Of a stretch of 64,000 bases of DNA, positions 20,961-37,673 are shown one piece after another; the stretch's first letter is position 1; each line of letters opens with the position of its first letter. Made by a program: the position numbers and the translations under genes. The DNA is from Rathayibacter sp. VKM Ac-2857. GTDB lineage: Bacteria > Actinomycetota > Actinomycetes > Actinomycetales > Microbacteriaceae. Below the pieces are notes generated by a model. That model was not told the origin of the DNA, ran no database searches, and saw only the letters and a list, made by a program, of their open reading frames with translations. Location of the stretch: the NCBI RefSeq assembly GCF_013205025.1, contig NZ_JABMLE010000001.1:1-64000 (forward strand), read 5' to 3'.

Positions 20961-22133
20961 ATGAAGGTTCCGCGCACCGCGACGACCCGCGTCGTCACCG
21001 AGATCAACCGGACGGCGATCGTCGACGCCCTGCGTCTGCACGGTCCCTCCTCCCGCAGCGCCATCGCGCGCCACACCGGCCTCAGCCCCGCCACCGTCGA
21101 GCGGCTCTGCTCGGCCCTCCTCGGCGAGGGCGTCATCGTGCTCGACGGCCGCGAGCGCTCCTCCGGCGGCCGGCCGTCCTCGCTCTACCGCTACGCCGGC
21201 GACGCGCGCGTCGTCGCCGCGATCGAGGTGTCCGAGGCGCAGGCGCACGGCCGCCTCGTCGACTTCGACGGCAAGACCGTGCGCGACGAGGTCCTCGCCT
21301 TCGAGCTCTCCGGCGACGGATCCGACGCCGACCGCCGCCTCGCCGGCACCATCGAGATGGTCGACCTGCTGATGGCCGCGTCGAAGCGCATCCGCAAGCC
21401 GTGCGCGGGAGTCGGCGTCACCATCCCGGGCATCGTGCACGGTCCGGAGGGCCGGGTCACCAACACGATCGAGCTCGGCTGGAGCGACGTGATGCTCGGC
21501 AGCATCCTCAAGGCCCGCGTCGGCGTGCCCGTGCTGGTCGAGAACGACGCCAACGCCATCGGCTTCGGCGAGTGGTCGCGCGGCGCCGGCCGCGGCACGC
21601 AGAGCCTCGCCACCTACGTGCTCGGCGTCGGAGTCGGTGCCGGCATCGTGCACGACGGTGCGCTGCTGCGCGGCTCGCGCTCGGCCGCGGGCGAGATCGG
21701 CTACCTGGTCACCGAGCGCTCGCACCTCGAGCGCCCGTACACGACGCAGGGCGACCTGGAGTCGCGGATCGCCGGAATCTCCCGCGGCTACGCCCGCGAG
21801 CACGCGTCCGACGCGGCGAACCCGCTCGGCGCCCTGCTCGACGCGGCCGCGGCCGGCGAGGAGTCCGCCCAGGCGCCCGCCGCCGAGGTCTTCGACTACA
21901 TCGGCCTGTCCTGCATCGCGCTCTGCACCGTGCTCGACCCGGAGCTGATCGTGCTGGCCGGCCACCTCTCGCGCCAGCCCGCGTACGCGATCCAGGAGGT
22001 GACGCGCCGCCTGGTCGGCCGGATCACCATCCCGCCGCGCATCGCAACCGCCGAGCTGGGTGCCGACGCGGCGCTCGTCGGCGTCGCGCAGCTCATCATC
22101 GCCCGCTCGCGGACGGCGACCTATCTCAGCTGA
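20961..22133 (+). CDS. ROK-family (NagC/XylR-like) transcriptional regulator
   Basis: A 390-residue ROK regulator. The N-terminal winged helix (NRTAIVDALRLHGPSSRSAI, then ARHTGLSPATVERLCSALL) is followed by a sugar-kinase-like domain with GVGVTIPGIV, VENDANAIGFGEWSRGAGRG and VGVGAGIVHDGALLRGSRSA. The usual CxCGxxGCxE zinc motif is degraded, since GEIGYLVTE is followed by SHLERPYTTQGDLES without cysteines. Its position beside nagB, a sugar kinase gene and an ABC importer suggests it controls the glycan locus in response to a phosphorylated amino sugar. The ATG at 20961 follows GAGGGAGGG, so the earlier ATG at 20931 is rejected. It overlaps convergent nagB by 8 bp. Confidence 0.88.
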   Translation: MKVPRTATTRVVTEINRTAIVDALRLHGPSSRSAIARHTGLSPATVERLCSALLGEGVIVLDGRERSSGGRPSSLYRYAGDARVVAAIEVSEAQAHGRLVDFDGKTVRDEVLAFELSGDGSDADRRLAGTIEMVDLLMAASKRIRKPCAGVGVTIPGIVHGPEGRVTNTIELGWSDVMLGSILKARVGVPVLVENDANAIGFGEWSRGAGRGTQSLATYVLGVGVGAGIVHDGALLRGSRSAAGEIGYLVTERSHLERPYTTQGDLESRIAGISRGYAREHASDAANPLGALLDAAAAGEESAQAPAAEVFDYIGLSCIALCTVLDPELIVLAGHLSRQPAYAIQEVTRRLVGRITIPPRIATAELGADAALVGVAQLIIARSRTATYLS

Positions 22134-22908
22134 GGCGCCGGTCGAGCGCTGCGGCCGCCTGCTGGTCCAGCAGCACCGTCACGTCCGGGTGGCCCTGCAG
22201 CGCCGAGGCCGGGCAATCGACGTCGACCGGACCGAGCAGCGCGCGCGCCACGGCGTCCGCCTTGGCCGACCCCGAGGCGAGCAGCACCAGCGAGCGCGCG
22301 GACAGGATGGTCGCGACGCCCTGCGTGATCGCCGACTCCGGCACCCGGTCGATCCGCCCGTCGAAGAACCGGGCGTTCGCCTCACGGGTGCTCCGCTCGA
22401 GCCGGACGACGTGCGTGCCGGCGTCGTGCGGGGTGCCGGGCTCGTTGAAGCCGATGTGCCCGTTGCCGCCGATGCCGAGGATCTGCAGGTCGACGCCGCC
22501 GACCGCGCGGATGGCCGCGTCGTAGTCGCGCCCCGCCTGCTCGCCGTCCGCGCGAGTGCCGTCCGGGACGTGCACGGCGCCCACGCCGAGCGGCACGCGC
22601 ACCTCGCGGTCGAGGACCGCGCGGTAGCTCTCGGGATGCCCGAGATCGATCCCGACGTACTCGTCGAGCGCGAAGGCGCTCACCCCGGAGAAGTCGATCC
22701 GGCCCGCCATGACACGCTCGGCGAGCTCGCGGTACAGCAGCGAGGGCGTCGAGCCGGTCGCGACGCCCAGCACCGCGCGCGGGTCGGCGAGGACGCGCTC
22801 GGCGACGAGATCCGCGGCGGCGCGGGAGGCCTCGGCGAAGGAGTCGAAGACGCGGACGGTGGTGCCGGGGGCGAAAGCGGTGCTCCCGCGGGTTCCGGTC
22901 AGGCTCAC
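22126..22908 (-). CDS. nagB: Glucosamine-6-phosphate deaminase
   Basis: Converts glucosamine-6-phosphate to fructose-6-phosphate and ammonia, the last step feeding amino sugars into glycolysis. The 260-residue chain has the phosphate loop GVATGSTPSLLYREL, the catalytic Asp in SAFALDEYVG, and GIGGNGHIGFNEPG with the active-site His. It starts at a GTG overlapping the TGA of the kinase gene (GTGA), so the two are translationally coupled. NagA at 34559-35734 supplies its substrate. Confidence 0.93.
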   Translation of the reverse strand: MSLTGTRGSTAFAPGTTVRVFDSFAEASRAAADLVAERVLADPRAVLGVATGSTPSLLYRELAERVMAGRIDFSGVSAFALDEYVGIDLGHPESYRAVLDREVRVPLGVGAVHVPDGTRADGEQAGRDYDAAIRAVGGVDLQILGIGGNGHIGFNEPGTPHDAGTHVVRLERSTREANARFFDGRIDRVPESAITQGVATILSARSLVLLASGSAKADAVARALLGPVDVDCPASALQGHPDVTVLLDQQAAAALDRRLS

Positions 22909-23867
22909 GAGGCCACCTCCGAGAGGGTGCGCTCGGCGGTGGCGAGGGCCCGTGCGTGCGCCATCGCGCCCACCACCGGCGGCCGCCGCACGACGACGAA
23001 CGCCAGCTGCGGAGCCCCCTCGGCCAGCCGCTCGCGGATCCGCCGCTCGTACGCGGGCTGGTTGACAATCACGCCGCCGCCCGCCACCACGAGCGAGCCG
23101 ATCGCCCCGCGGCGCACGAGCGAGGCGACGCCCGCGGCCAGCGCCTGCGCGGCGTCCTCGACGATCCGCCCGGCGAGGGCCGACCCGGCGGCCGCCTGCT
23201 CGAAGACGAGCGGGGCGAACGCGCCCCAGGCCGCGCCGCCGGCGATGCGCGTCGCCTCGGCGGCGAGGGTCGCGGCGTCGCTCGCGCCGAACGCGGTGAG
23301 GACGGCGCCGATCAGCGGATCCGGGGCCCCGCCCTCAGGAGTGACACCGTTATCGCAGGCCACGAGGGTCGCCCGCAGCGCCGTCGACACGAGGTCGTGC
23401 GCGCTGCCGCGGTCGCCGAGCGGCCAGCCGTGGCCGTCGACGGTGATCCGGGCGCCGTCCGCGGTCGTCCCGCAGATCACGGCGCCGGTGCCGACGATCA
23501 TCTGGATGCTCGGTTCCTCCTGCTCCGCGAAGCCCAGCAGCTCGGCGTCGTTGACGACCGTCACGGGCCGGCCGAGGCGGAGCGACAGCGTCGCCGTCGC
23601 CTCCCGCATCTGCCCGGGGGTGTCGCAGCCGTGCACGCCGAGCACCACGACGGCGTCCTCGGCGAGCGGGCGGAGGCGCAGCAGCACCTCGGCCAGTCGC
23701 GGCAGGTTCTCGGGGTCGGCGAAGAGCTCGCCGGAGCGCCAGGCGCTCGAGGGGAGGACGAGGTCCTCCTCCGCGCCGTCCGTGTCGAGGAGGCGGACGT
23801 GGGTCTTGGTGCCGCCCACGTCGACACCGACGAGGTGGGCTGCGGCCTGCGGAGGATTTTGCGTCAC
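22905..23867 (-). CDS. BadF/BadG-type N-acetylglucosamine kinase-like protein
   Basis: A 320-residue ASKHA-fold kinase of the BadF/BadG/BcrA/BcrD type, most likely phosphorylating GlcNAc or a related amino sugar. The N-terminal phosphate loop is GVDVGGTKTHVRLLDTDG; VVNDAELLGF and MIVGTGAVICG form the catalytic and adenosine-side segments, and VVAGGGVIVN lies near the C-terminus. It is the first gene of a coupled pair with nagB, which fits GlcNAc, GlcNAc-6-P (NagA), GlcN-6-P (NagB) in order. The GTG at 23867 is chosen because upstream in-frame sequence is not protein-like; no clear ribosome binding site is visible. Confidence 0.82.
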   Translation of the reverse strand: MTQNPPQAAAHLVGVDVGGTKTHVRLLDTDGAEEDLVLPSSAWRSGELFADPENLPRLAEVLLRLRPLAEDAVVVLGVHGCDTPGQMREATATLSLRLGRPVTVVNDAELLGFAEQEEPSIQMIVGTGAVICGTTADGARITVDGHGWPLGDRGSAHDLVSTALRATLVACDNGVTPEGGAPDPLIGAVLTAFGASDAATLAAEATRIAGGAAWGAFAPLVFEQAAAGSALAGRIVEDAAQALAAGVASLVRRGAIGSLVVAGGGVIVNQPAYERRIRERLAEGAPQLAFVVVRRPPVVGAMAHARALATAERTLSEVAS

Positions 23868-23941
23868 AGTGGCATGAAAGCATCTCTCGCCCCGTGGGAC
23901 AAGGCGGCTGGCGCGTGATGCAGCCCCTCGCACACCCTCGC

Positions 23942-23967
23942 GTTACGGCGCTGTTTCCGCGAGTTAC
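23942..23967. promoter_or_regulatory. GlnR-like box between the kinase gene and the ABC importer
   Basis: On the - strand the region reads GTAAC, 5 bp, GAAAC, 6 bp, GTAAC (23967-23963, 23957-23953, 23946-23942). GTNAC-N6-GAAAC repeats at about 11-bp intervals are the known binding pattern of the actinobacterial nitrogen regulator GlnR; here one interval is 10 bp. The site lies 75-100 bp upstream of the kinase-nagB pair and about 135-160 bp upstream of the importer. Because amino sugars supply nitrogen, control by GlnR is plausible. Confidence 0.4.
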
Positions 23968-24004
23968 GGCCCGATCACGACTTCCGGCGCCTCGAAGATT
24001 CTTG

Positions 24005-24033
24005 TTGACCTATATGGGTCGTATTGATAAGAA
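24005..24033 (+). promoter_or_regulatory. Promoter and candidate ROK operator of the importer operon
   Basis: TTGACC (24005-24010) is a good -35; at 17 nt spacing TAAGAA (24028-24033) is a weak -10. The palindrome GACCTATATGGGTC (24007-24020), with a single mismatched pair, overlaps the -35 and spacer, where a repressor would block polymerase. The stretch is conspicuously AT-rich for this genome. The ROK regulator at 20961-22133 is the obvious candidate binder. Confidence 0.5.
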
Positions 24034-24100
24034 AGCACTACCGCCTCGACGACGAAGCGCCCGCGCCTCGTCGACTGACAGACACATGAAAGGTGTTCCG

Positions 24101-25363
24101 TTGAAGAAGACAGCACGCGCCACCCTGGCGCTCCTCGGCACGGGAGTGCTGATCGCTTCTCTCGCCGGGTGCGCGAACGGCTCCTCCGGAGCCGGCGCCT
24201 CCGACCCGCTCCAGTTCGTCCTCTCCGGCGACGGGACCCAGGGCGGCGGCTACCAAAAGATGGCCGATCTCTACCAGGAGCAGACCGGTGTCGAGGTCGA
24301 GATCGTCGACGTCCCGGGCGACGACCTGACGACGCGCCTGCGCAACAGCGCTCAGGCGAACGACCTGCCGGCCCTCGCCGCGGCGGCGAACGTCGACCCG
24401 CTGTGGAAGGACCAGATCCTCGACCTCTCGCAGATCGCGACCGACCAGGACATCCTGCCGCTGCTCGCCGTGCCCGACCCCGAGGACGGCAAGGTCAAGG
24501 CGCTGCCCACCAGCCTCACCTCGGTCGGCATGTTCATCAACAAGTCGCTCTTCGACGAGGCCGGCGTCTCCTACCCCACCGACGCGACGCAGAGCTGGAC
24601 CTGGGACGAGTTCGTCGCCAAGTCCGAGGAGGTCCAGGCGGCCACCGGCGCGCAGTACGGCATGGTGATGGACAACTCCGCGCACCGCCTCCGCTCCTTC
24701 CTCTACGAGTTCGGCAGCGAGGGCATCGTCGACGACGGCGGCACCTTCACCGCGAACGCCGAGACGAAGACGGCGCTGGAGTACTTCAAGAAGCTCAACG
24801 ACGACGGGTTCATGCCCAAGTCGGTCTGGACCGCCGGCGAGGACGCCAGCGCGACCTTCAAGAGCGGCCAGGTCGTCTCCTACTACTCCGGCGTCTGGCA
24901 GATCGCGGACTTCCAGTCGAACATCACCGAGTTCGAGTGGGCCTCGGTGCCGACCCCGCAGCAGCCCGTCAAGGCGACCAACTACGGCGCCGCCTCGTGG
25001 ATCGTCGCCTTCGACGGCACCGGCCAGGAGGAGGAGGCCCAGAAGTTCATCGACTGGCTCTACCAGCCCGAGCAGTACTCCGCGTACTGCGAGATCGCCG
25101 GCTGCCTGCCCGCCGTCACTGGCCTCGAGATGAACTACCCGGCCAACCAGGACGCGTTCGCGCTCTACAACGCCGAGATCGCGGCCTCGCCCGCCGTCTC
25201 CTCGCTGCAGACCGTCGACCAGCTGATCGGCGGCTACGAGGGCAAGTTCCTCCAGTCGGAGCCGCTCAAGGACGAGACGATCAAGTACCTCAACGACCAG
25301 CAGAGCGTCGACGAGACCATCGACAACATCCTGTCGACGACCCAGGCCGCCCTCGGCGAGTAG
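24101..25363 (+). CDS. Sugar ABC transporter substrate-binding lipoprotein
   Basis: Family 1 (MalE/UgpB-like) solute-binding protein of 420 residues, anchored outside the membrane. A Lys-rich start, hydrophobic core and lipobox SLAGC mark the lipoprotein signal; LQFVLSGDGTQGGGYQKMAD opens the mature two-lobed fold. It captures the oligosaccharide for the two permeases encoded next. The TTG at 24101 is preferred over the ATG at 24086 because AAAGGTG lies 6 nt upstream. A strong hairpin after the stop separates it from the permease genes, a common means of keeping binding protein in excess. Confidence 0.88.
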   Translation: MKKTARATLALLGTGVLIASLAGCANGSSGAGASDPLQFVLSGDGTQGGGYQKMADLYQEQTGVEVEIVDVPGDDLTTRLRNSAQANDLPALAAAANVDPLWKDQILDLSQIATDQDILPLLAVPDPEDGKVKALPTSLTSVGMFINKSLFDEAGVSYPTDATQSWTWDEFVAKSEEVQAATGAQYGMVMDNSAHRLRSFLYEFGSEGIVDDGGTFTANAETKTALEYFKKLNDDGFMPKSVWTAGEDASATFKSGQVVSYYSGVWQIADFQSNITEFEWASVPTPQQPVKATNYGAASWIVAFDGTGQEEEAQKFIDWLYQPEQYSAYCEIAGCLPAVTGLEMNYPANQDAFALYNAEIAASPAVSSLQTVDQLIGGYEGKFLQSEPLKDETIKYLNDQQSVDETIDNILSTTQAALGE

Positions 25364-25370
25364 GTCCCCC

Positions 25371-25402
25371 GGGCGGTGCGGGGTCCTCTCCCCGCACCGC
25401 CC
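25371..25402 (+). terminator. Intra-operon hairpin after the binding-protein gene
   Basis: A perfect 13-bp stem (25371-25383 with 25390-25402; arm GGGCGGTGCGGGG) and a 6-nt loop, located 8 nt after the binding-protein stop and 48 nt before the first permease start. It is likely a partial terminator or a 3' RNA stabiliser that raises binding-protein output relative to the permeases. Confidence 0.6.
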
Positions 25403-25449
25403 TCCCCCTCGACCGATCGCACCGCCGATCACCCGATCAGGAGAGCATC

Positions 25450-26421
25450 ATGACCGTCCAGCCGCTCGTCACTCCGTCCTCACCACCGGAGGCGGTCCTC
25501 ACGGTCCCCGGCGCAGGTCGCGGATCGAAGGGCTCGCGCCGGCGCCCCGTGCGCCGCCCCCGCTACGTCGTCAGCACGGTGCTGCTGACGGTCGGCGTCG
25601 CGATCCTCTTCGCCCTCTTCTTCGTCTGGCCGGGCGCGCTCGGCGTGATGTACTCCTTCACCTCCTACCGGGGCTTCGGCGACATCGAGTTCGTCGGCCT
25701 CGACAACTACACGGCGCTCGCGCAGGACCCGGTGTTCTACGCCGCGGTCGGCCGCACGCTCGTCTACGCGCTGTTCTCGGTGCCGTTCGCCTGCGGCCTC
25801 TCGCTGCTGATGGCCGTCGCGCTGAACAATGCGCGTGCCAAGGGCAAGATCGGCGCCCGCATCATCTTCTTCCTGCCCTGGCTGGTCTCCCCCATCGTCG
25901 CGGGCGTCATCTGGCGCTGGATGTTCGGCGAGAGCTTCGGCTTCGTCAACTTCGCCATCACCTCGCTCGGCGGCGGCGCCGTGCCGTGGTCCTCGAACGC
26001 CGATCTCTCGCTCTTCGTCGTGATCCTCGCCTCCGCCTGGGGCGGAGCGGCCTTCAACATGCTGCTGTTCATCGCCGCGCTGAACAACGTGCCGGTCTCG
26101 CAGTACGAGGCGGCCGAGCTCGACGGCGCCAACCCCTGGCAGCGCTTCGTGTCGATCACCCTCCCCGGCATCGCGCCGACCACGCTGCTCGTGGTCCTGC
26201 TCTCGACGCTCGGGCACATGAAGGAGTTCGCGATGATCCAGGCCCTCAACAACGGCGGCCCGGGCACCGAGAACCAGCTCATCGTCCAGTACATCTTCCA
26301 GACCGGATTCGCGCAGTCGAACGTCGGCTACGCCAGCGCCGCCTCGATGGTGCTGCTGGTGATCCTGCTGATCATCGCCGCCATCCAGCTCGCCATCAGC
26401 AAGAGGAGCCAGGCATGGTGA
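25450..26421 (+). CDS. Sugar ABC transporter permease, MalF/UgpA type
   Basis: Inner-membrane permease of 323 residues with six predicted membrane helices after a basic cytoplasmic N-terminus (about 40 residues). The EAA loop that contacts the ATPase is EAAELDGANPWQRFVSITLPGI. It pairs with the next-encoded permease to form the channel for the binding protein above. The ATG at 25450 follows AGGAG. Its stop overlaps the next start (ATGGTGA, 7 bp). No ATPase gene lies in this locus, so a shared MsiK-type ATPase elsewhere is expected, as is usual in actinobacteria. Confidence 0.9.
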   Translation: MTVQPLVTPSSPPEAVLTVPGAGRGSKGSRRRPVRRPRYVVSTVLLTVGVAILFALFFVWPGALGVMYSFTSYRGFGDIEFVGLDNYTALAQDPVFYAAVGRTLVYALFSVPFACGLSLLMAVALNNARAKGKIGARIIFFLPWLVSPIVAGVIWRWMFGESFGFVNFAITSLGGGAVPWSSNADLSLFVVILASAWGGAAFNMLLFIAALNNVPVSQYEAAELDGANPWQRFVSITLPGIAPTTLLVVLLSTLGHMKEFAMIQALNNGGPGTENQLIVQYIFQTGFAQSNVGYASAASMVLLVILLIIAAIQLAISKRSQAW

Positions 26422-27320
26422 CCACGACCCCCGCCCCCGTCCGCACGACCCGCCCGAAGCGCACGCCGGCCGCGCCCGCGCCGATGACCCGGAAGAAGAC
26501 CGGCGAGTTCCGCCGCTCGATCGGCCCGACCGCGATGCTCTGGGCGATCGCGATCCTCACCCTCTTCCCGCTGCTCTGGTTCCTGCTCAGCTCCTTCAAG
26601 GGCGGCGGCGACCTCTTCACCTACCCGCTCTCGCTGCTGCCGCGCGAGTGGACCCTCGACGGCTACCAGCGCGCGCTCGAGCGGGTCGACTTCCTCCGCT
26701 ACTTCTCGAACACCTTCGTGGTCGCGACGCTGACCACGCTGCTCACCGTCTTCTTCAGCGCGACGACCGGCTACGCCCTGGCGAAGTACAAGTCGCCGTG
26801 GCTGAGCGTGCTGGCGCTCTGCATCCTGGCGACGACGATGCTGCCCGGCGAGGTCATCCTCAACCCGGTCTTCACCGTGGTCCGCGACCTCGGCATGTAC
26901 AACACGCTGATGGGCATCATCATGCCGTCGATCCTCACGCCCACCGGTGTCTTCATGTTCCGGCAGTTCTTCATCACGGTGCCGGACGAGCTGCTCGACG
27001 CCGCCCGGATCGACGGGGCGCGCGAGCTCTCGATCTTCTTCCGGATCATGCTGCCGCTGTCGAAGCCGATCATCCTGACGCTGTCGATCATCTCGTTCCA
27101 GTGGCGCTGGAACGACTACATCTTCCCGCTGATCATCCTCAGCGACCCGAAGAACTTCACCCTGCAGATCGCGCTCCGCCAGCTGATCGGCGCCCAGAAC
27201 ATCGACTGGGCGATCCTGCTCTCCGCCTCGGTGCTCTCGATGCTGCCGCTGGTGGCGATCTACCTGGTGTTCCAGAAGTACATCACCGGGTCCGACATCA
27301 ACGCGGGGCTGCGCGACTAG
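26415..27320 (+). CDS. Sugar ABC transporter permease, MalG/UgpE type
   Basis: Second permease of the importer, 301 residues, six membrane helices. The EAA loop appears as DAARIDGARELSIFFRIMLP, close to the consensus, and the segment SFQWRWNDYIFPLIIL is typical of carbohydrate uptake family 1 permeases. It overlaps the upstream permease gene by 7 bp and is followed after 2 bp by the GH38 gene, so the importer and the glycosidases form one operon. Confidence 0.9.
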   Translation: MVTTTPAPVRTTRPKRTPAAPAPMTRKKTGEFRRSIGPTAMLWAIAILTLFPLLWFLLSSFKGGGDLFTYPLSLLPREWTLDGYQRALERVDFLRYFSNTFVVATLTTLLTVFFSATTGYALAKYKSPWLSVLALCILATTMLPGEVILNPVFTVVRDLGMYNTLMGIIMPSILTPTGVFMFRQFFITVPDELLDAARIDGARELSIFFRIMLPLSKPIILTLSIISFQWRWNDYIFPLIILSDPKNFTLQIALRQLIGAQNIDWAILLSASVLSMLPLVAIYLVFQKYITGSDINAGLRD

Positions 27321-27322
27321 AG

Positions 27323-30300
27323 ATGCACCACGACGAAACCAAGGCCGCCGCCCGCGTCGACCGCTTCCTCGCCGAGCGCCTCCCCCTCGCGGTGACGGCC
27401 GAGCGGATCCCGCTCGCCGTCGCCGCGTGGACGGCCGCCGGCGAGCCGGTCGCCTTCGAGACCGCGACCGACCCGCGGAACAGCTACGAGACGATCGAGC
27501 CGGGAGCGCCGTGGGGCGCCGCCTGGGACACCACCTGGTTCCGGGTGACCGGGACGGTGCCCGCCCTGTGGAGCGACGTGGGCGACCGGTTCCGGATCGA
27601 GCTCTCGCTGGACCTCGGCTTCAACCGGGCCAAGCCCGGGTTCCAGTGCGAGGGGCTCGCCCGTGCCGAGGACGGCCGGGTGCTCAAGGGCCTCGAGCCG
27701 CGCAACCACCACGTGCCGCTCGACGCGGCTCCCGGGGAGGAGTTCCTCGTCTGGGTGGAGGGCGCGTCCAACCCCGACCTCACCGGCGGGAACGACTTCG
27801 CCGGCCCGGACGGCTTCTCGCCCACCCCGTTCGGCGACCGCGCCACCGCGCCCGTCGAGCCGCTCTACCGCCTCGGCCGCTTCTCCGTCGTGCTGGTCGA
27901 CACCGTCGCCGAGCGGCTCGGCCTCGAGCTCGGCGTCCTCCGCGGGCTGCACGACGAGCTGCCGGTCACCGAACCGCGGAGGCACGAGATCCTCGCCGGG
28001 CTGACCCGGGCCCTGAACACCGTCGACCCCGACGGCCTCGCCGGCACCGTCGCCGACGCGCGCGCGGTGATCGCGCCGCTGCTCGCCGCGCCGGCCGCGC
28101 ACTCCGCGCACCGCATCTCGGCGACCGGCCACGCCCACATCGACTCCGCCTGGCTCTGGCCGACCCGCGAGACCGTCCGCAAGTGCGCGCGCACCTTCTC
28201 CAACGTGCTCGACCTGATGGACTGCGACCCGGACGCCGTCTTCACCTGCTCCTCCGCCCAGCAGTTCGCCTGGATGAAGGAGCACCACCCCGGGATCTTC
28301 GCCCGCATCGTCGAGCGGGTCCGCGAGGGCCGCTTCGTGCCGGTCGGCAACATGTGGGTCGAGTCCGACGTCACCATGCCCTCCGGCGAGTCGCTGGTGC
28401 GCCAGCTGCAGCAGGGCGCGCGCTTCTTCCAGGAGGAGTTCGGCGCGATCAGCGAGGTCGGCTGGCTGCCCGACTCGTTCGGCTACCCGGCCGCGCTGCC
28501 GCAGCTGCTGCGGAAGGCGGGGCTGCGCTGGTTCTTCACGCAGAAGATGTGCTGGAACGAGACCAACGCGATGCCGCACCACTCCTTCGTCTGGGAGGGG
28601 CTCGACGGCTCGCGGATCTTCACCCACTTCCCGCCGTCGAACACCTACAGCGGCGACCTGCGGCCGACCGAGCTGGCGCGGATCGTCCGCAACTTCCAGG
28701 AGCACGGGCGGGCGACCCGCTCGCTGATGCCGTTCGGCTACGGCGACGGCGGCGGCGGGCCGACCCGCGAGATGATGGCGCTCGCCCGGCTGCAGTCCGA
28801 CCTCGAGGGCTCGCCGCGGATCGAGTTCTCCTCCGCGCACGACTTCTTCGAGGCCGCCGAGGCCGAGTACGCCGACCCGCCGGTCTGGTCCGGCGAGATG
28901 TACCTCGAGTTCCACCGCGGCATCCTCACCTCGCAGGCGCGCACCAAGCAGGGCAACCGGCGCAACGAGCGGCTGCTGGCCGAGGCGGAGCACTGGGCGA
29001 GCGTCGCGTTCCTGCGGCACGGCGTGCCGTTCCCGTTCGACGAGCTCGACGCGCTCTGGCGGCGGGTGCTGCTGCTGCAGTTCCACGACATCCTCCCCGG
29101 CACCGCGATCGCCTGGGTGCACCGCGAGGCCGAGCGCACGCACGCCGAGGTGACGGACGCGCTCGAGCGGATGATCGGCGAGCGGCTCGCGGTGCTCGTC
29201 GGGCCGGGCGAGCGGCGGATCGCCCTGAACGCGGCGCCGGTAGTCGTCGGCGGGGTGCCGGCGCGGGGCGGGGCGGTGGTCACGCCCGTCGAGGGCCTGA
29301 TCGTCCGCGCCGACGGCGAGGGCTTCGTGCTCGAGTCACCGCTGCTCACCGTCGTGGTCACGGCCACCGGGCAGCTCTCGAGCGTCGTCGACCGCGACTC
29401 CGGGCGCGAGCTGCTGCCCGCCGGACGGGTCGGGAACCTGCTGCAGCTGCACCGCGACGAGCCCAACCAGTGGGACGCCTGGGACCTCGACGCCGCCTAC
29501 CGCGACACCGTCGTCGACCTCGTCGACGGCACGGTCGAGCTCGGCGAGGACGGCGCGAGCGTCGTCGTCCGCCGGAGCTTCGGGCGCACCGGCAGCACGG
29601 CGACCCAGACGATCGCCCTCGATCCCCGCGAGCCCGCGGTCCGGATCCGCACGGTCGTCGACTGGCACGAGCGGCGGAAGCTGCTGAAGCTCGCCTTCCC
29701 GCTCGACGTGCACGCCGAGCACTCCTCGGCCGAGACGCAGTTCGGCCACGTCCGCCGCCCGGTGCACACCAACACCAGCTGGGAGGCCGCGAAGTACGAG
29801 ATCTGCGCGCACCGCTGGCTGCACGTCGGCGAGCCGGGCTTCGGCGTCGCCGTCGCCTCCGACGCGGTCTACGGCTACGACGTCCAGCGCACGATCGACG
29901 ACGGCCGCGTCAGCACCGTCGTCCGCCAGTCGCTGCTGCGCGCGCCGACCTTCCCCGATCCGGAGGCGGACCAGGGCGAGCACGAGTTCCTCAGCACGCT
30001 CACGGTCGCGCCCGGCATCGCCGACGCCGTCCGGGCCGGCTTCGCCGCGAGCACCGCGCCGCGCGTCGTCCTCGGCGGCTCGGTCCCGGAGGCGCTCGTC
30101 GCCGTCGAGGACCCGGCCGTGGTCGTCGACACCGTCACCCTCGCCGCCGACCGCAGCGGCGACGTGATCGTCCGGCTGCACGAGGCGCTCGGCGGACGCG
30201 TTCGCACGGCGCTGGTCGTCGCACATCCGCTCGGCCGCGTCCGCGAGGTCGACCTGCTCGACCGCGACGTCGAGGGGACGGCGCTGCTGGGCGTCGACTC

Positions 30301-30409
30301 CGGCCGGATCGCGCTCGAGCTTCGGCCGTTCGAGGTCGTGAGCCTCCGCCTCTCCCCCGCTGCCGTTCCTTCCCCCGCTTCCGATCCTCACCCCGTGGAG
30401 ACCCCGTGA
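27323..30409 (+). CDS. Alpha-mannosidase, glycoside hydrolase family 38
   Basis: Retaining GH38 alpha-mannosidase of 1028 residues, predicted cytoplasmic because no signal peptide is present. Zinc-site residues occur in GHAHIDSAWLWP (His272, Asp274), and Asp384 in GWLPDSFGYPA is the expected catalytic nucleophile. A long N-terminal beta domain precedes the catalytic domain, and the C-terminal beta domains extend to the end; length fits the bacterial/yeast-vacuolar type. It should trim mannose from oligosaccharides after import. Its TGA overlaps the GTG of the next gene (GTGA), indicating coupled translation. Confidence 0.92.
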   Translation: MHHDETKAAARVDRFLAERLPLAVTAERIPLAVAAWTAAGEPVAFETATDPRNSYETIEPGAPWGAAWDTTWFRVTGTVPALWSDVGDRFRIELSLDLGFNRAKPGFQCEGLARAEDGRVLKGLEPRNHHVPLDAAPGEEFLVWVEGASNPDLTGGNDFAGPDGFSPTPFGDRATAPVEPLYRLGRFSVVLVDTVAERLGLELGVLRGLHDELPVTEPRRHEILAGLTRALNTVDPDGLAGTVADARAVIAPLLAAPAAHSAHRISATGHAHIDSAWLWPTRETVRKCARTFSNVLDLMDCDPDAVFTCSSAQQFAWMKEHHPGIFARIVERVREGRFVPVGNMWVESDVTMPSGESLVRQLQQGARFFQEEFGAISEVGWLPDSFGYPAALPQLLRKAGLRWFFTQKMCWNETNAMPHHSFVWEGLDGSRIFTHFPPSNTYSGDLRPTELARIVRNFQEHGRATRSLMPFGYGDGGGGPTREMMALARLQSDLEGSPRIEFSSAHDFFEAAEAEYADPPVWSGEMYLEFHRGILTSQARTKQGNRRNERLLAEAEHWASVAFLRHGVPFPFDELDALWRRVLLLQFHDILPGTAIAWVHREAERTHAEVTDALERMIGERLAVLVGPGERRIALNAAPVVVGGVPARGGAVVTPVEGLIVRADGEGFVLESPLLTVVVTATGQLSSVVDRDSGRELLPAGRVGNLLQLHRDEPNQWDAWDLDAAYRDTVVDLVDGTVELGEDGASVVVRRSFGRTGSTATQTIALDPREPAVRIRTVVDWHERRKLLKLAFPLDVHAEHSSAETQFGHVRRPVHTNTSWEAAKYEICAHRWLHVGEPGFGVAVASDAVYGYDVQRTIDDGRVSTVVRQSLLRAPTFPDPEADQGEHEFLSTLTVAPGIADAVRAGFAASTAPRVVLGGSVPEALVAVEDPAVVVDTVTLAADRSGDVIVRLHEALGGRVRTALVVAHPLGRVREVDLLDRDVEGTALLGVDSGRIALELRPFEVVSLRLSPAAVPSPASDPHPVETP

Positions 30410-32106
30410 CCACCGTCGACGACGCCCCCTACGCCGCCCGGCTGATCGCGGACGCCCGCGTGCGGTGCGACGAGTTCGCCGGGCGCGCCCGGCAGCCGCT
30501 GAGCGGGCTCGGCCCGCGCCCGACCATGCGCGCCATCACCTCCCTCGTCGCCCAGGCGATCGCGGAGGGCGACGAGGGGCCGGAGCTGCGCGAGACGGCC
30601 GAGACCTACCTCCGGCACCTCGCCGTCCAGCAGCTCGACAGCGGGCTGTTCTCGAGCAGCGGCAACCTCGCCTCCCCGCCCGACACCGCGTTCACGATCA
30701 ACGACCTCTGCGGCTGCGTCGAGCTGCTCGACCGCTACCGGCCCGCGGGCTTCGACGAGCTCCGAGCGGGACTCGCGGACATCGCCGTCGCGGCCTCGCC
30801 CGCGATGCTGGCGGGCGGCGTGCACACGCCGAACCACCGCTGGGAGCTGGCGAGCGCCCTCGCCGCCCTCGCGGTGCACGTGCACGGCGGGCGCTCGGCG
30901 GACGGCGCGTCGGGCGCCCTCGCCGCCGCGCTGCTCGACCGCGCCGACGCCTGGCTGGCCGAGGGCGTCGACATCGACGCCGACGGTCAGTACAGCGAGC
31001 GGAGCGCCGTCTACGCCACCGAGGTCACGAACCCGAGCCTGCTCGCGCTCGCGCACGACCTCGACCGGGCGGCGCTGCTCGAGCCGGTGCGGCGGAACCT
31101 CCGTGCTATCGCCGGCCTGGTCGAGGACGACGGCGAGATCGAGTGCGTGCACTCGCGCCGGCAGGACCAGACCATCCCCTACGACGTCGAGAACCTGCTC
31201 TCGCCCTACCGCCTGCTCGCGCTCGAGGACGGCGACCGCGACGCCGCCCGGATCGTCGGGCAGATCCTCGGCCGGACGCTGCGCGAGCCGGAGCGGCACC
31301 TCGCCGAGCTGCTGCGCCGCCCGGAGCTCGGCGGACTCCTGCCCGAGCCCGCCGCGACGCCCGCCTCCGTCACGCGCGGCTACCCGGTCAGCCGGCTGCT
31401 CCGCCGTCGCGAGGGCGCACTCTCCGTGTCCGTCTCGGCCGGCAGCGACTTCGCGGCCACCGGCCGGATCGGCTCCGGACTCGCCAACTCGGCGACCCTG
31501 CTCCGCGCCCGCGCGCACGGACTCGTCCTGCGCTCGCTCCGCGTCTCGCCCGCGTTCTTCTCGCTCGGCTGCGCGCGCCCGCAGACGCTGGAGCAGACCG
31601 AGCGCGGCGGCGTGCTCGTCGAGCGGCGCGTCTCGGGCTACTACGACACGCTCGGCGCTGACGCGCCCGCCGTCACCGCCGTCCCGGACAGCGAGGGCCG
31701 CTTCTTCTCGGTGATGGACTTCGCCCGCCGCGAGCGCTTCGACGTCGAGCTGCGCACCGAGGTGGCGGTCGAGATCGACGAGAAGGGGATCGACGTGCGG
31801 GTCTCCTTCACCGGGCTCGAGACGCGCTACGCGCTGGAGCTGGTCGTCGACGGCGACGCACTCGTGGCGGGGGCCGCGGCCCTCGAGGACGGCTGGTGGC
31901 TCGACGGAGCCTCCGCGACCGTCGCCACCGGCTCCGCCGTGCTCTCGATCGAGACCGAGCCGGGCGACGGCGTCCCGCCGGTCTTCGACGACGGCGAGAT
32001 GTTCACGTACGTCGGCGGCGCCGACCGCGTCGCCGGCACCCGGATCCTGCTCGGCGGCTCCACGACCGAGCCGCGCCGCCTGCGGCTCGCGATCGCGGCG
32101 CGATGA
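30406..32106 (+). CDS. Unclassified alpha/alpha-toroid-like protein of the glycan locus
   Basis: A 566-residue protein I cannot assign with confidence. Residues 1 to about 330 look all-helical, with repeated short aromatic or charged motifs: GNLASPPDTAFTINDLCG, HTPNHRWELASALAALAVH (His140, His144, Trp146), and YSERSAVYATEVTNPSLLAL from Tyr196. The remainder is beta-rich. This two-domain layout resembles heparinase II/III-type lyases and unsaturated uronyl hydrolases, but I see no decisive active-site match. It has no signal peptide and overlaps both neighbours by 4 bp, so it is embedded in the operon between GH38 and the GH95-like enzyme and is probably a glycan-active enzyme. Confidence 0.6.
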   Translation: MTTVDDAPYAARLIADARVRCDEFAGRARQPLSGLGPRPTMRAITSLVAQAIAEGDEGPELRETAETYLRHLAVQQLDSGLFSSSGNLASPPDTAFTINDLCGCVELLDRYRPAGFDELRAGLADIAVAASPAMLAGGVHTPNHRWELASALAALAVHVHGGRSADGASGALAAALLDRADAWLAEGVDIDADGQYSERSAVYATEVTNPSLLALAHDLDRAALLEPVRRNLRAIAGLVEDDGEIECVHSRRQDQTIPYDVENLLSPYRLLALEDGDRDAARIVGQILGRTLREPERHLAELLRRPELGGLLPEPAATPASVTRGYPVSRLLRRREGALSVSVSAGSDFAATGRIGSGLANSATLLRARAHGLVLRSLRVSPAFFSLGCARPQTLEQTERGGVLVERRVSGYYDTLGADAPAVTAVPDSEGRFFSVMDFARRERFDVELRTEVAVEIDEKGIDVRVSFTGLETRYALELVVDGDALVAGAAALEDGWWLDGASATVATGSAVLSIETEPGDGVPPVFDDGEMFTYVGGADRVAGTRILLGGSTTEPRRLRLAIAAR

Positions 32107-34562
32107 GCATCCCGACGAGCACCCCGATGAGCGCCGACGGCTCTCACCACAGCACGGCCGGCTCCGGAGGCTTCCACGGCAGCACCGCCGCCGCCGGCTG
32201 GGAGACCGGGCTGATGGTCGGCACCGGGACGACCGGCGCGGCACTGTACGAGGGCGCCGACGGCGAGGGCCCCGAGGGCGAGGGCGACGGCGACGGCGGC
32301 GGCGGCGCGGTCGTCTCCCTCTCGCACGAGCGGCTGCGGCTGCCGGTCGACCCGCTGGTCGGGCCGCCGCTGCTCGCGCCGCTGCTGCCCGAGATCCGCG
32401 CGCTGCTCGCGCACGCGCCCGTCGGCGCCGCGGACGCCGAGCGGATGGAGGAGTGGCACACCCGCGCCTGGGCCGAGGAGGGGCACGACGGCTCGCTGCT
32501 CGACGCCGACCCGCTGGTACCCGCGGGGGTGCTGCGGCTCGAGCTGACCACCGGGTCCTCGGGCGGCACGCGCGAGCGCTCCGTCGACTACCCGACGGGC
32601 ACTGCCTCCCTCACTCTGCCGACCGGCCTCGCCGTCACCGTGCGCGCCGATCGCGGCGCCGACCGGCTCCTCGTCTCGGTGCACGCGGACTCGCCCTTCT
32701 CCGGCCTGCTCCGGCTCGCCCCGGCCGACGAGCCGACCGAGCCCGACCTCGGTCCCGACGCCCCGCGCGACCACCGCGAGCACGCCGTCGTCCGCGCCGT
32801 CGACGGAGGCGAGACCCTCGCCCTCGAGACCGTGCCCCGCCACCCCCGCCCGGCGGGCTTCCGCTCCGCCCTCGTCGTCGCGCGCCTGCTGCGGGGCCAG
32901 GAGTCCGTCGAGCGGGAGCGCGACGCGCCCTGGCCCGTCTGGCGCGTCTCCGGCGCGCGCGAGCTCGAGCTGGAGCTGCGCGTCTCGGTCACCTCGACCG
33001 CGTCCGCGCCCGTCGCTCCGCCGGTGCTCGTCCGCTACCCCGCAGCGACCACCCCGCACGAGCGGCTCGTCGGCGCCTGCTCGTTCTCCCTCGGCGCCGC
33101 GACCGCGCGGAGCATCGAGGAGGTGCGCGCCGACCCCGCGGCGACCGACGAGCTCGTCGAGCGCGCCTTCGCCGCCGGCCGGCACGCGATCATCGCCTCG
33201 ACCGGTGAGCTGCCCGCCAGCCTGCAGGGCGTCTGGGCCGGCTCCTGGGCGCCGGCCTGGTCCTCCGACTACACGCTCAACGGCAACGTGCAGAACGGCG
33301 GCGTCGCCTCGCTCGGCACGACCGGCACGCCCGAGCTGCTGCGCTCCTTCTTCACCGCCGTCGCCGAGTTCGAGGACGACTACCGCCTCAACGCCGAGCG
33401 CATCCTCGGCGCGCCCGGCTTCCTGCTGCCCACCCGCATCTCCGGGCACGGCCGCGCCAACCACTTCACGGCCGAGTACCCGCTGCAGTACTGGCTCGGC
33501 GGCGGCGGCTGGATCCTCCGCCTCGCCTGGGACCACTGGTCGGGCACCGGCGACGAGGAGTTCCTCCGCGACTGGGCCCGGCCCTTCGCCCGCGAGGTCG
33601 TCGCCTGCTACCGGCACGCGCTGGTGCTCGACGAGGACGGCACCGCGCACGTCTCGCCCGGCTACTCCCCCGAGAACCACCCCGGCGACCAGGAGACGCC
33701 GATCACGCGCGACGCGACGTCGGAGGTCGCGATGATCCGCGACGCCCTGCTGCTCGCCGCGCGCATCGAGCGGCTGGTCGCCCCCGACGCTTCCGACACC
33801 GCCGAGGAGTGGGAGGCGCTCGCCGCCGGGCTCCCCGGCTACCGCGTCAGCCCCGACGGGCAGCTGGCCGAGTGGCAGGACCCCGCCCTCACCGACCGGC
33901 CGGAGCACCGGCACGCCTCGCACCTCTACCCCTGGTGGTACGAGGGCGTCCCGGCCGCCGCCGATCCCGGCGTCGGCGCCGCGGCGCTCGAGGCGGTCCG
34001 CGCCCGGCTGCGCTGGCGCGCCGAGGAGCCGACCGCCCCGCCCGGCCGGATGGAGATGGCCTTCGGACTCGTGCAGGCCGGCGTCGCCGCCGCGACCCTC
34101 GGCGACGCCGACGCGGCGCTGCAGTGCGTCGACTGGCTGGCCCGCCTGCACTGGCGCCCGAACATGATGCCGACCCACGACGCCGACGCCATCTTCAACG
34201 TCGACGCGGCGGGCGGGCTGCCCGCCCTGGTGGCGCAGATGCTCGCCCGCTCCGACGGCACGACGCTGCACCTGCTGCCCGCCCTGCCCGCGCGCTGGTC
34301 GGAGGGCCGGATCACCGGCCTGCACCTGCGCGGCGCGCTGCGGGTCGAGTCGCTCACCTGGAGCCCGGAGTCCGTCGAGTGCGTGCTCCGCAGTCCCCTC
34401 GACGCGGCGGCGGCACGGCTCGGCGAGCGCGTGCTCGTGCGGCTGCCGGTCGACGTCGAGCTCGAGGAGGGCACGCCCGGAGCGCTCCAGGTCGACCCGC
34501 GCACCCTCTCGGTGGACCTGCGGAGTGGCGCACCCCTGCACCTCGCCCTGCGGAGGATCTAG
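32103..34562 (+). CDS. GH95-like glycoside hydrolase (alpha-L-fucosidase/galactosidase type)
   Basis: An 819-residue protein with GH95 hallmarks: SLQGVWAGSWAPAWSSDYTL then NGNVQN, with the water-activating pair Asn393/Asn395; the general-acid Glu524 in SPENHP; HRHASHLYPWWYEG; and Asp701 in FNVDAAGG. These align in order with Asn421, Asn423, Glu566 and Asp766 of the bifidobacterial 1,2-alpha-L-fucosidase. Overall similarity is low, and the substrate could be fucose or galactose in another linkage. A Gly/Asp/Glu-rich stretch near residues 50-66 is an unusual low-complexity insert. There is no signal peptide. The ATG overlaps the previous TGA, and the end overlaps convergent nagA in CTAG. Confidence 0.78.
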   Translation: MSIPTSTPMSADGSHHSTAGSGGFHGSTAAAGWETGLMVGTGTTGAALYEGADGEGPEGEGDGDGGGGAVVSLSHERLRLPVDPLVGPPLLAPLLPEIRALLAHAPVGAADAERMEEWHTRAWAEEGHDGSLLDADPLVPAGVLRLELTTGSSGGTRERSVDYPTGTASLTLPTGLAVTVRADRGADRLLVSVHADSPFSGLLRLAPADEPTEPDLGPDAPRDHREHAVVRAVDGGETLALETVPRHPRPAGFRSALVVARLLRGQESVERERDAPWPVWRVSGARELELELRVSVTSTASAPVAPPVLVRYPAATTPHERLVGACSFSLGAATARSIEEVRADPAATDELVERAFAAGRHAIIASTGELPASLQGVWAGSWAPAWSSDYTLNGNVQNGGVASLGTTGTPELLRSFFTAVAEFEDDYRLNAERILGAPGFLLPTRISGHGRANHFTAEYPLQYWLGGGGWILRLAWDHWSGTGDEEFLRDWARPFAREVVACYRHALVLDEDGTAHVSPGYSPENHPGDQETPITRDATSEVAMIRDALLLAARIERLVAPDASDTAEEWEALAAGLPGYRVSPDGQLAEWQDPALTDRPEHRHASHLYPWWYEGVPAAADPGVGAAALEAVRARLRWRAEEPTAPPGRMEMAFGLVQAGVAAATLGDADAALQCVDWLARLHWRPNMMPTHDADAIFNVDAAGGLPALVAQMLARSDGTTLHLLPALPARWSEGRITGLHLRGALRVESLTWSPESVECVLRSPLDAAAARLGERVLVRLPVDVELEEGTPGALQVDPRTLSVDLRSGAPLHLALRRI

Positions 34563-35734
34563 CCCGTCGCGACCGGCTCGCCCGCGGCCCACACCGCCCG
34601 CACCTGCAGGGCGTCGTCCAGCAGGACCACGTCGGCCGCCCGGCCGACCGCGAGCGCGCCGAACCGCTGCTCCGCGCCGAGCACGCGGGCGGGAGTCGCG
34701 GTGACCGCACCGACCGCGGCCTCGAGACCCAGGCCGACGCCGGCTCCGACCGCCCCGGCCGCACGGCGGAGCGCCGCGTCGAGCGTCAGCGTCGAGCCGG
34801 CGAGCGTCGCCGTGCCCTCCAGCCGGGCGACCGCGCCCTGGACGTCGACGCGCAGCCGGCCGATCCGGTGGGCGCCGTCGCCCGCTCCCGCCGCCGCCAT
34901 CGCGTCGGTGACCAGCGCGATCCGTCCGGGCGCCGAGGCGAACGCGAGCCGCGCCACGTCCACGTCCACGTGCTCGCCGTCGAGGATCAGCTCCAGCACC
35001 ACCCGCTCGTCGGCCAGCGCCACCGGGATCGGTCCCGGCGCGCGGTGCCCGATGCCCGGCATCGCGTTGAAGGCGTGGGTGACCAGCCGAGCCCCGCGCT
35101 CGATCGCCGCGCGCGTCGTCGCCGCGTCCGCCTCGGTGTGGCCGACGGCGACGACGACGCCCGCCTCACTGAGCCGCTCGATCGCTTCGAGGGCCCCCGG
35201 CAGCTCGGGCGCGATCGTGATCTGCCGGAGCCTCCCGCGCGCCGCGTCGAGCAGCCGCTCGACCGCCTCGGGCGTCGGCGCGATCAAGGCGTCCGGGTCG
35301 TGCGCCCCGCAGCGGGACGGCGCGAGGAACGGCCCCTCCAGGTGAGCACCGAGGACGAGCGGATCCTCCGCCACGAGCGAGGCGACCGTGTCGAGCGACG
35401 CCTCCAGCTCGTGGAGCGGCGCCGAGACCAGGCTCACCAGCGAGCGCGTCGTCCCGTGCGCGCGGTGCAGCGCGAGCCCGGCCCGCATCCCGCCCGCGCC
35501 CTCGTCGAAGCTGCGCCCCGCCCCGCCGTGCACGTGCAGATCGACGAACCCCGGAGTCGCCGTCAGCCCGCCCGCGTCGTGCACCGGCGCGCCCTCGGCC
35601 ACCCGCTCCCAGCCTCGCCCAGTCCCGACCTCGACGATCACACCGTCGTCCGCGACCAGCCAGAAGTCCTCGACGGTCCCCTCCGCGTCCACCATCCGCG
35701 CGCCGTGCAGCACCAGCCTCCCGCTCCGCTCCAT
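34559..35734 (-). CDS. nagA: N-acetylglucosamine-6-phosphate deacetylase
   Basis: Amidohydrolase of 391 residues that removes acetate from GlcNAc-6-P, giving GlcN-6-P for NagB. Metal and catalytic residues are visible: GFVDLHVHGGAG, HLEGPFL (Glu), VGHTEA (His), THAFNAMPGIGHR (His) and the catalytic Asp in ALVTDAMAA. It is transcribed convergently to the glycosidase operon and ends in a 4-bp overlap with it. A ribosome binding site, GAGGAGAGGG, precedes the ATG. With the kinase and NagB it completes the GlcNAc pathway around the importer. Confidence 0.93.
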   Translation of the reverse strand: MERSGRLVLHGARMVDAEGTVEDFWLVADDGVIVEVGTGRGWERVAEGAPVHDAGGLTATPGFVDLHVHGGAGRSFDEGAGGMRAGLALHRAHGTTRSLVSLVSAPLHELEASLDTVASLVAEDPLVLGAHLEGPFLAPSRCGAHDPDALIAPTPEAVERLLDAARGRLRQITIAPELPGALEAIERLSEAGVVVAVGHTEADAATTRAAIERGARLVTHAFNAMPGIGHRAPGPIPVALADERVVLELILDGEHVDVDVARLAFASAPGRIALVTDAMAAAGAGDGAHRIGRLRVDVQGAVARLEGTATLAGSTLTLDAALRRAAGAVGAGVGLGLEAAVGAVTATPARVLGAEQRFGALAVGRAADVVLLDDALQVRAVWAAGEPVATG

Positions 35735-35968
35735 GTCCCTCTCCTCACCTCCCGGGGCACCGCCCCCTCAGCTCATGCCGGCCGACCAGCGACGCAGCTC
35801 CTGCCGCCCAACCACCGGCGCAGCTCATGCTGGCCAACCACCGGCGCAGCTCATGCTTGCCGACTACCGGCGCAGCGGCCCTTCATGCCGGTCGAGTAGC
35901 CGCACAGCCGCCGTTCATGCTGGTCGAGTGGCCGCGCAGCGGCGTATCGAGACCCACGTCACCGGCAC
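35735..35968. repeat. Repeat cluster B: degenerate ~26-bp tandem units
   Basis: Between nagA and the PmoA-like gene lie about six tandem units of roughly 26-32 bp (35769-35963) of the form CTCATGCTGGCCAACCACCG followed by GCGCAG. They grade from diverged copies on the left to an intact unit on the right, CATGCTGGTCGAGTGGCCGC then GCAGCGGCGTATCGAGACC. The first copies have lost the pairing half, so the array looks like amplification of half of the REP-like element seen at 877-1184 and 62597-62828. No gene is present. Confidence 0.8.
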
Positions 35969-36808
35969 TCAAGCGCCCCGCCCCCAGCTCGCCTCGATCT
36001 CCTCCGCACCCAGCACCGAGTCCGCCAGCAGCAGCTGCCAGCTCCATTCCGCCTCGGCACCGGCCTCCAGTGTCCACGTCGCGCCGAAGAACGGCGCCGC
36101 GCACAGCATCGGCGTCTCGCTCGTCCGCACGAACCACGTCGTCGGATCCACCGGGTTGCCCTCGTCCGCGCGCAACGCGACCGTCGCGCTCCCGTCCGCT
36201 ACCGCCAGCCAGCGCGACGCGACCCCCATCGGCTCCGCGACAGCCCCGTCCGGCCCGCTCACCGTGCTCCCGTCGAACGACGGATCCAGCCGCAGGAACA
36301 GCCCGCCGTACCCCGCGTCCGGCCGCCCCGCCGTGGTCGGCGAGCCGAAGACGAGCCGCTCCCCGAGCGCGCGCCAGCGGCTCTCGATCCGCAGCACCGT
36401 CACGTCCCCGAGCCGGCGGACGCTCAGGCGCCGCCGCTCGTCGAGGAACCGCCGTCCGCGCGCATCGAACCACCCCAGCGCGAGGTCGGCGGGATCCGCG
36501 CCCTCCGGCCGCTGCGAGCCGTTGTTGTCCACCTGCCGGTAGCCCGTCCCGGTCAGCCAGGTCGGGCCGCCCCACAGATTGGTGTCGAGCTCGTCCGCGC
36601 CGATGGTGATGTTCGACACCGCGAGCGACAGCCCGAGATGCCAGTCGTGGTCCGCGGGCCGCACGTCGCTGACGACGCGCCCGGCGGGCGTCCGCAGCGG
36701 ATGCAGATACGGCCGCGGCGAGTCCCTCGGCGGCGTGTCCGGATCGGTGAGCACGAGGCGCCCGACCCCGTCCGGCAGTTCGACGGAGGTCGGCGAGTCC
36801 TGGTCCAT
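35969..36808 (-). CDS. PmoA-like (DUF6807) family protein
   Basis: A 279-residue soluble protein of the DUF6807 family, often misleadingly annotated as methane oxygenase PmoA; it has no relation to that membrane enzyme in topology. Recognisable segments are RPYLHPLRTPAGRVVSDVRP and ADHDWHLGLSLAVSNI, with conserved His residues, and FLRLDPSFDGSTVSGPDG. Family members frequently sit in carbohydrate utilisation loci of actinobacteria and Bacteroidetes, as here beside nagA; the function is unknown. TACCGT (36821-36816) is 7 nt upstream of the ATG, suggesting a leaderless mRNA. Confidence 0.72.
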   Translation of the reverse strand: MDQDSPTSVELPDGVGRLVLTDPDTPPRDSPRPYLHPLRTPAGRVVSDVRPADHDWHLGLSLAVSNITIGADELDTNLWGGPTWLTGTGYRQVDNNGSQRPEGADPADLALGWFDARGRRFLDERRRLSVRRLGDVTVLRIESRWRALGERLVFGSPTTAGRPDAGYGGLFLRLDPSFDGSTVSGPDGAVAEPMGVASRWLAVADGSATVALRADEGNPVDPTTWFVRTSETPMLCAAPFFGATWTLEAGAEAEWSWQLLLADSVLGAEEIEASWGRGA

Positions 36809-36848: not shown

Positions 36849-36890
36849 ATGCCCCGCACCGGAACCACGCCCCGATCGTCGCGCCGATGA
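36849..36890 (+). CDS. 13-codon leaderless upstream ORF
   Basis: An ATG at 36849 is exactly six bases downstream of TACAGT (36837-36842), the spacing seen at other leaderless starts in this window. It would encode [13 protein letters not shown], and its TGA overlaps the ATG of the SGNH hydrolase gene in ATGA (36887-36890). No ribosome binding site is seen for the hydrolase itself, so its translation may depend on termination-reinitiation from this short frame. The peptide is basic and has no recognised motif; the role may be purely regulatory. Confidence 0.45.
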   Translation: MPRTGTTPRSSRR

Positions 36891-37645: not shown

Positions 37646-37673
37646 GCGGGGCCGCCGGAGCTCGGCATCCGGC

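Follow-up and report, generated by a model that had tools for sequence, protein, structure and literature searches.

A ROK regulator, a GH38 enzyme, and a binding protein with two permeases are known together from the pneumococcal N-glycan system (CPL with NgtS-NgtP1-NgtP2), a glycan import system in which, according to excerpts of the source, GH38 is accompanied by GH125, GH92, GH20, GH29 and an endo-enzyme, and importer and enzymes are encoded in separate loci (PMC5215778). The same elements are found in a single locus of eleven genes at positions 20961-36808 of the 64,000 nucleotides of Rathayibacter sp. VKM Ac-2857 DNA analyzed here, a stretch that we refer to as the window. Unlike the pneumococcal system, the locus also encodes a 566-residue protein with the working name x566, a GH95-like protein, NagA, NagB and a DUF6807 protein, and lacks GH125, GH92, GH20, GH29 and an endo-N-acetylglucosaminidase (endo-GlcNAcase). 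It resembles the NagA-NagB pathway for N-acetylglucosamine (GlcNAc) in that deacetylase, deaminase and kinase are encoded together, but here the kinase is of the BcrAD/BadF type, an ATP-binding cassette (ABC) importer is present, and in our reading a heteroglycan would feed the pathway. We propose that this accessory locus serves to take up and digest a small anionic glycan, which would most likely be an inositol glycan derived from the glycosylinositol phosphorylceramide (GIPC) sphingolipids of plants, a reading to which we give a probability of roughly 0.4.

The accessory nature of the locus is apparent from a comparison of the site in 15 Rathayibacter genomes, including this one. The locus is present in four (G000, G116, G419 and G421, the last three with the ROK gene clipped at the edge of the stretch compared) and absent from the site in 11. 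Of the right-flank genes, PemK, AmtB and AFG1 were nevertheless present in every one of the 11, and GDSL in nine. Four of these 11 (G045, G171, G221 and G263) lack x566 throughout the genome, the other seven having been checked at the site only. Comparison of the eleven genes with three relatives gave dN/dS values from 0.03 to 0.34. Positions 20961-36808, which an earlier preliminary description made from the DNA alone had given for a single import-then-cut locus with amino-sugar handling, therefore delimit an accessory locus that is under purifying selection. That description had also called for a check of co-conservation across genomes, and the grouping stands, the set being kept together within the genus and either intact or gone from the site.

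The least familiar member of the locus is x566 (30406..32106, + strand), which matches no Pfam or NCBIfam family and gave chance-like matches only in sequence and profile searches of the PDB. When 38 x566 proteins were searched against Pfam, scattered single weak matches were all that was found, and at E values up to 1 none of the proteins matched PF16889 or PF07940. Scanning GTDB species genomes for a pattern returned 447 stretches, of which 403 encode an x566 relative; the best 80 of the 403 were kept, a choice that favors close relatives and Streptomyces, and all are labeled actinobacteria. With this genome included in each case, x566 is present in 10 of 299 Microbacteriaceae genomes and in five of 396 genomes of an even sample of the phylum. 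By these sequence comparisons x566 appears to head a large actinobacterial family. Blocks that are invariant in the 38 sequences include SPPD, HTPNHRWE, SERS and SRRQDQ, and there are several invariant acids (D93, D100, E147, E186, D189, E198 and D254) and only two invariant histidines, H140 and H144.

A distant likeness was found between x566 and the heparinase II/III-type lyases (PF16889; PDB 4mmh, 5jmd, 4fnv). Using hhalign, the x566 alignment matched a profile of 12 heparinase II/III-type proteins, gathered by PF16889 from 13 loci with L115 left out for want of a usable reading frame, with a score of 41 (P 6e-4) over 469 columns and an HH-suite probability of 29%. Fourteen control families from the same loci scored 12-26, the reversed x566 alignment scored 16, and none of 100 block-shuffled and 100 fully shuffled x566 alignments reached 41 (maxima 35.6 and 24.3, respectively). 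DUF2264 and GH88, tried as further candidate relatives, were rejected with scores of 18.7, 18.5 and 24.5, within the control level. A smaller heparinase set of four matched more weakly, along 90 columns in an unchanged register and with a probability of 5%. In this register the invariant N143-H144, E198 and Y203 of x566 fall on NNH, E and Y residues that are invariant in four heparinase-type proteins, thus aligning with the Asn-His and Glu/Tyr motifs of the heparinase toroid; at the N143-H144 position heparinase III reads NHR, and we take its N240 and Y294 to be catalytic. The same four heparinase-type proteins keep H529, H531 and D533 in the second, beta-sandwich domain, an HxHxD motif that x566 lacks. 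The toroid domain of x566 is thus probably heparinase-like, but by the criteria for the superfamily x566 is not filed as a heparinase.

To see in what company x566 is found, we examined 87 x566 loci: the 80 named loci from the scan, six from Microbacteriaceae genomes and the window, with L018 left out as it comes from the same genome as L100. Since 41 of the 87 are labeled Streptomyces (including L072, 'Actinobacteria bacterium'), the loci are not independent. Neighbors were counted by tblastn (E value up to 1e-12 over at least 40% of the query), so the counts are lower bounds, and gene calls in the relatives are mechanical. The importer is the most regular neighbor, each permease being found in 84 of the 87 loci and the binding protein in 80. 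Three Kribbella loci (L077, L080, L094) have permeases of only about 30% identity, in the opposite orientation; of the three loci with no importer, two (L036 and L042) are clipped by contig ends. The sugar kinase was found in 50 loci, ROK in 22 (56 by clustering), GH38 in 16, DUF6807 and a Gfo/Idh oxidoreductase in 12 each, nagB in nine, GH2 in six, GH95-like in five (Pfam adds L032), GH51 in four and SIS in three. In Glycomyces loci, importer and x566 were the sole members of the set found, which makes the imported glycan itself the most likely target of x566.

Some relatives link x566 to inositol genes. At least three iol genes lie near x566 in six of the 87 loci, under five genus labels (L020, L022, L050, L058, L062, L066); in L050 and L066 fewer than 100 bases separate the end of x566 from that of the last iol gene, which is on the opposite strand, and in L020, L050 and L062 GH2, GH51, x566 and iol genes occur together. 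Two of the 10 x566-bearing Microbacteriaceae genomes (G215 and G126) have an IolB-family gene 3 to 5 kb from x566, which exceeds expectation from uniform placement, since the genomes measure 3 to 4.6 Mb and contain 0-3 IolB-family genes each.

A second link is to enzymes of the PF07470 (GH88/GH105) type, whose substrates are the unsaturated uronides that lyases produce. In an uncultured Bifidobacterium (L031:1946-4289) two PF07470 (GH88) genes (E 1e-96 and 5e-98) follow the kinase in the same orientation and have ROK, importer and x566 as neighbors. In B. panos a PF07470 gene (L186:3533-4648; E 1e-98) shares a 6.5-kb contig with a GNAT-like gene and a partial kinase, and lies on the opposite strand about 1 kb past the kinase; the x566 contig ends inside what appears to be the same kinase, the two contigs being read separately and not joined. 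The module in these two bifidobacteria thus resembles the known pairing of GH88 hydrolases with polysaccharide lyases, whereas the Rathayibacter locus has no PF07470 gene and the two matches in its own genome are unlinked to it, on contig C3. The idea that GH88 is a constant companion of x566 failed: among 40 genomes taken from the 80 named loci (39 not labeled Streptomyces and one Streptomyces), 11 had a PF07470 match over the cut-off, four a weaker one and 25 none.

These observations bear on the chemistry of x566, the odds of which are separate from those of its substrate. That x566 instead represents a new family of glycoside hydrolases is a real but smaller chance, for which the several invariant acids, the missing heparinase-type second-domain His and the 25 of 40 x566 genomes with no PF07470 match all speak, while the alignment of its Asn-His and Tyr motifs with those of heparinases and the GH88 genes next to the bifidobacterial modules are better explained by a lyase. 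On the sequences at hand we lean toward lyase.

The heparinase likeness, together with the iol and unsaturated-uronyl-hydrolase neighbors, suggests a glycan that contains both uronic acid and inositol. Mannose, hexosamine, uronate and inositol, joined in some cases by galactose and arabinose, are what plant GIPC headgroups consist of. As described in excerpts of the literature, these have a core of glucuronic acid and inositol with mannose or with glucosamine or GlcNAc, and headgroups of up to 19 sugars, including arabinose, galactose, mannose and fucose, are reported (PMC12201980, PMC7980081, PMC8366399). GIPCs are termed the predominant glycosphingolipids of plant membranes (PMC12201980), and GIPC-derived inositol glycans and inositol phosphate glycans are reported to occur in free form both in plants and in infected leaves (PMC11496612), so that a soluble substrate exists. 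For such a glycan, the ROK regulator would control the locus, and the lipoprotein and two permeases would import the glycan with power from a shared MsiK-type ATPase. In the cytoplasm, GH38 would take off alpha-mannose, the GH95-like enzyme would release fucose or some similar sugar, and x566 would split the linkage that joins the uronic acid to the amino sugar (or to mannose), acting probably as a heparinase-like lyase and possibly as a hydrolase. After phosphorylation, the freed glucosamine or GlcNAc would lose its acetyl group to NagA and its amino group to NagB, giving fructose-6-phosphate, and the inositol would pass to iol enzymes that this genome would have to encode elsewhere.

Several observations weigh against this proposal. 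The HH-suite probability that ties x566 to heparinases is only 29%, or 5% with the smaller set, and the second-domain HxHxD has no counterpart among the x566 invariants. nagA stands beside x566 in just two of the 87 loci, both Rathayibacter. As for inositol, 81 of the 87 loci lack three iol genes in the stretch examined, and catabolic genes cluster anyway, making the chance rate of iol linkage uncertain. The two strong IolB genes of this genome lie on other contigs, unlinked to x566, and strong IolB matches (E below 1e-70) occur in all four Rathayibacter genomes with the locus and also in seven of the 11 without it; an association between locus and IolB within the genus was accordingly set aside as uninformative. 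No phosphatidylinositol-specific phospholipase C was found in the 15 Rathayibacter genomes, but the search controls were silent too, hence this result is uninformative. Finally, in the 25 genomes that have no PF07470 match a lyase product would need some other hydrolase.

Two other substrates share much of the same evidence. One is another inositol glycan: the core of glycosylphosphatidylinositol (GPI) anchors, fungal GIPC, actinobacterial phosphatidylinositol mannosides or mycothiol-type glucosamine-inositol. A substrate of one of these kinds would also fit the joint presence of mannose, glucosamine and inositol genes. Uronate chemistry is called for by none of them, which sits badly with the heparinase likeness of x566 and with the GH88 genes beside the bifidobacterial module, and we judge this alternative unlikely. 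An oligosaccharide of uronate and hexosamine with no inositol, such as a glycosaminoglycan- or capsule-like fragment or a piece of mannose-glucuronic acid exopolysaccharide, would account for the heparinase-like x566, the amino-sugar kinase, nagA and nagB and the bifidobacterial GH88; it fits poorly with the GH38, GH2 and GH51 neighbors and the iol operons, and is in our view slightly less likely again.

The preliminary description had named a short oligosaccharide of mannose, fucose and GlcNAc as the substrate, with a plant or fungal N-glycan fragment as its example, and a pneumococcus-like uptake of fucosylated, mannose-containing N-glycan fragments, with GH38 acting on mannose, GH95 on fucose, and NagA, NagB and the kinase on GlcNAc, deserves weighing here. 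The GH38 alpha-mannosidase (27323..30409, + strand; PF01074 E 7e-92 plus other GH38 domains) has alpha-mannosidase 7ufr as its nearest PDB relative (E 4e-210), its HxD, DSFG and FHD motifs, presumably with their usual roles, are all present, and the amino-sugar enzymes that such a diet would call for are in place. As excerpts of the source describe it, the pneumococcal N-glycan system has the same ROK, binding protein with two permeases, and GH38 (PMC5215778), and the GH95-like protein could replace the fucosidase of N-glycan systems. GH125, GH92, GH20, GH29 and endo-GlcNAcase are not among the eleven genes, the only part of the genome searched for them; x566, which recurs with the importer, has no part in such a pathway and is not needed for it. 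Of the 87 loci, just 16 have GH38 alongside x566, against 50 with the kinase, and the iol and GH88 links are left unexplained. We therefore hold an N-glycan substrate to be improbable and favor a substrate of the GIPC type.

If plant GIPC is the substrate, x566 may found a new heparinase-like family that splits the bond between hexosamine (or mannose) and glucuronate in GIPC headgroups, and the x566-ABC module may be an undescribed bacterial pathway for them, common to soil and plant actinobacteria and some bifidobacteria; this wider claim we offer as a possibility, and a doubtful one. No report of bacterial use of GIPC sugar heads was found in the excerpts of the open-access literature searched. 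Were it true, x566 would mark the opening of GIPC heads in many actinobacteria and would be a testable genetic marker of GIPC turnover in soil, leaf and gut. Even with some other substrate, a frequent family that has no name in Pfam or NCBIfam gains a gene context and a candidate chemistry.

The core of the locus lies on the + strand in the order binding protein, permease, permease, GH38, x566 and GH95-like, with intergenic distances of 86, -7, 2, -4 and -4 bases, the negative values including the 4-base overlaps of GH38 with x566 and of x566 with GH95-like. The ROK gene is on the + strand at the left, and the nagB-kinase and nagA-DUF6807 pairs run opposite to the core. Gene models, which were based on codon-position composition and Pfam, together with NCBIfam searches, bore out the positions, identities and 4-base overlaps in the preliminary description, with one change: the gene it called 'PmoA-like' (35969..36808, - strand) is where it was placed, and its family is DUF6807 (PF14100, E 1e-48). 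Its expectations that the glycosidases have no signal peptide and that the transport ATPase comes from elsewhere also proved sound. By a hydropathy check, used in place of a trained predictor, no signal-like N-terminal hydrophobic stretch was seen in GH38, x566, GH95, NagA, NagB, the kinase or the DUF6807 protein. None of the eleven genes encodes a transport ATPase, and a gene of the MsiK type lies on contig C1 of this genome near 925 kb; the 3 kb around it contain neither a permease gene nor one for a binding protein. A search of the 64-kb window against Rfam gave no match. The right border is followed by GDSL lipase and PemK/MazF-like genes (window positions 36887-38204).

The putative ROK-family transcriptional regulator (20961..22133, + strand) combines a winged helix-turn-helix (HTH) domain (HTH_IclR) with a ROK domain (PF00480, E 4e-32), and is 95% identical to that of Rathayibacter L024 and 54-68% identical to those of Pseudarthrobacter, Agromyces and Agreia loci. 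The probable glucosamine/GlcNAc kinase of the BcrAD/BadF type (22905..23867, - strand; GTG start; PF01869 E 1e-17) has 2e2n hexokinase and 8zo3 MurNAc/GlcNAc kinase as PDB relatives. Both nagB, for glucosamine-6-phosphate deaminase (22126..22908, - strand; PF01182; TIGR00502 E 2.5e-65), and nagA, for N-acetylglucosamine-6-phosphate deacetylase (34559..35734, - strand; TIGR00221 E 7e-64), gave strong family matches that fall below the NCBIfam equivalog cut-offs (220 bits with a cut-off of 237, and 216 bits with a cut-off of 226, respectively). The solute-binding lipoprotein of the importer (24086..25363, + strand; PF13416 E 3e-34) has, by the same hydropathy check, a signal-like N terminus with the lipobox LAGC; its nearest PDB relative is 7bvt (E 1e-21), and none of its PDB relatives names a ligand. 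ABC permeases 1 (25450..26421) and 2 (26415..27320), both on the + strand, match PF00528.

The GH95-like glycosidase (32103..34562, + strand), of the alpha-L-fucosidase/galactosidase family, scored 179 bits to PF22124 (E 1.5e-52; Pfam cut-off 27). It shares the catalytic domain with GH95 alpha-L-fucosidases (PDB 8zbv, 7kmq, 4ufc, 2eab) and keeps their NxN, SPE and VD positions, which we take to be the catalytic ones. It differs from them in having VQNGGV where they have a (Q)MNYW-type stretch, and it has no Pfam match to the N-terminal GH95 domain PF14498, yet 7kmq aligns over nearly its whole length.

DUF6807 receives only passing mention in the excerpts of open-access literature searched. 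In L023:4-1914 a Gfo/Idh oxidoreductase is fused to DUF6807, which suggests that the two may act together. A cassette of DUF993, AP_endonuc_2-type and Gfo/Idh genes is found near x566 in four of the 87 loci (L074, L096, L100, L023). On contig C3 of this genome, DUF2264, GH88-like and KduI-type genes within 10 kb (C3:312383-322015) probably form a separate uronate/pectin island. Among the neighbors of x566 in Streptomyces, PAP2, PMT, GH65, HAD and the unclassified cluster 9 were set aside as probably separate. Cluster 9 comprises a 611-residue protein (L103:11543-13378 and 27 further loci) that has no Pfam or NCBIfam match, lies mostly directly behind x566 in Streptomyces-type loci, and resembles heparinases weakly at the profile level (score 32, P 0.006).

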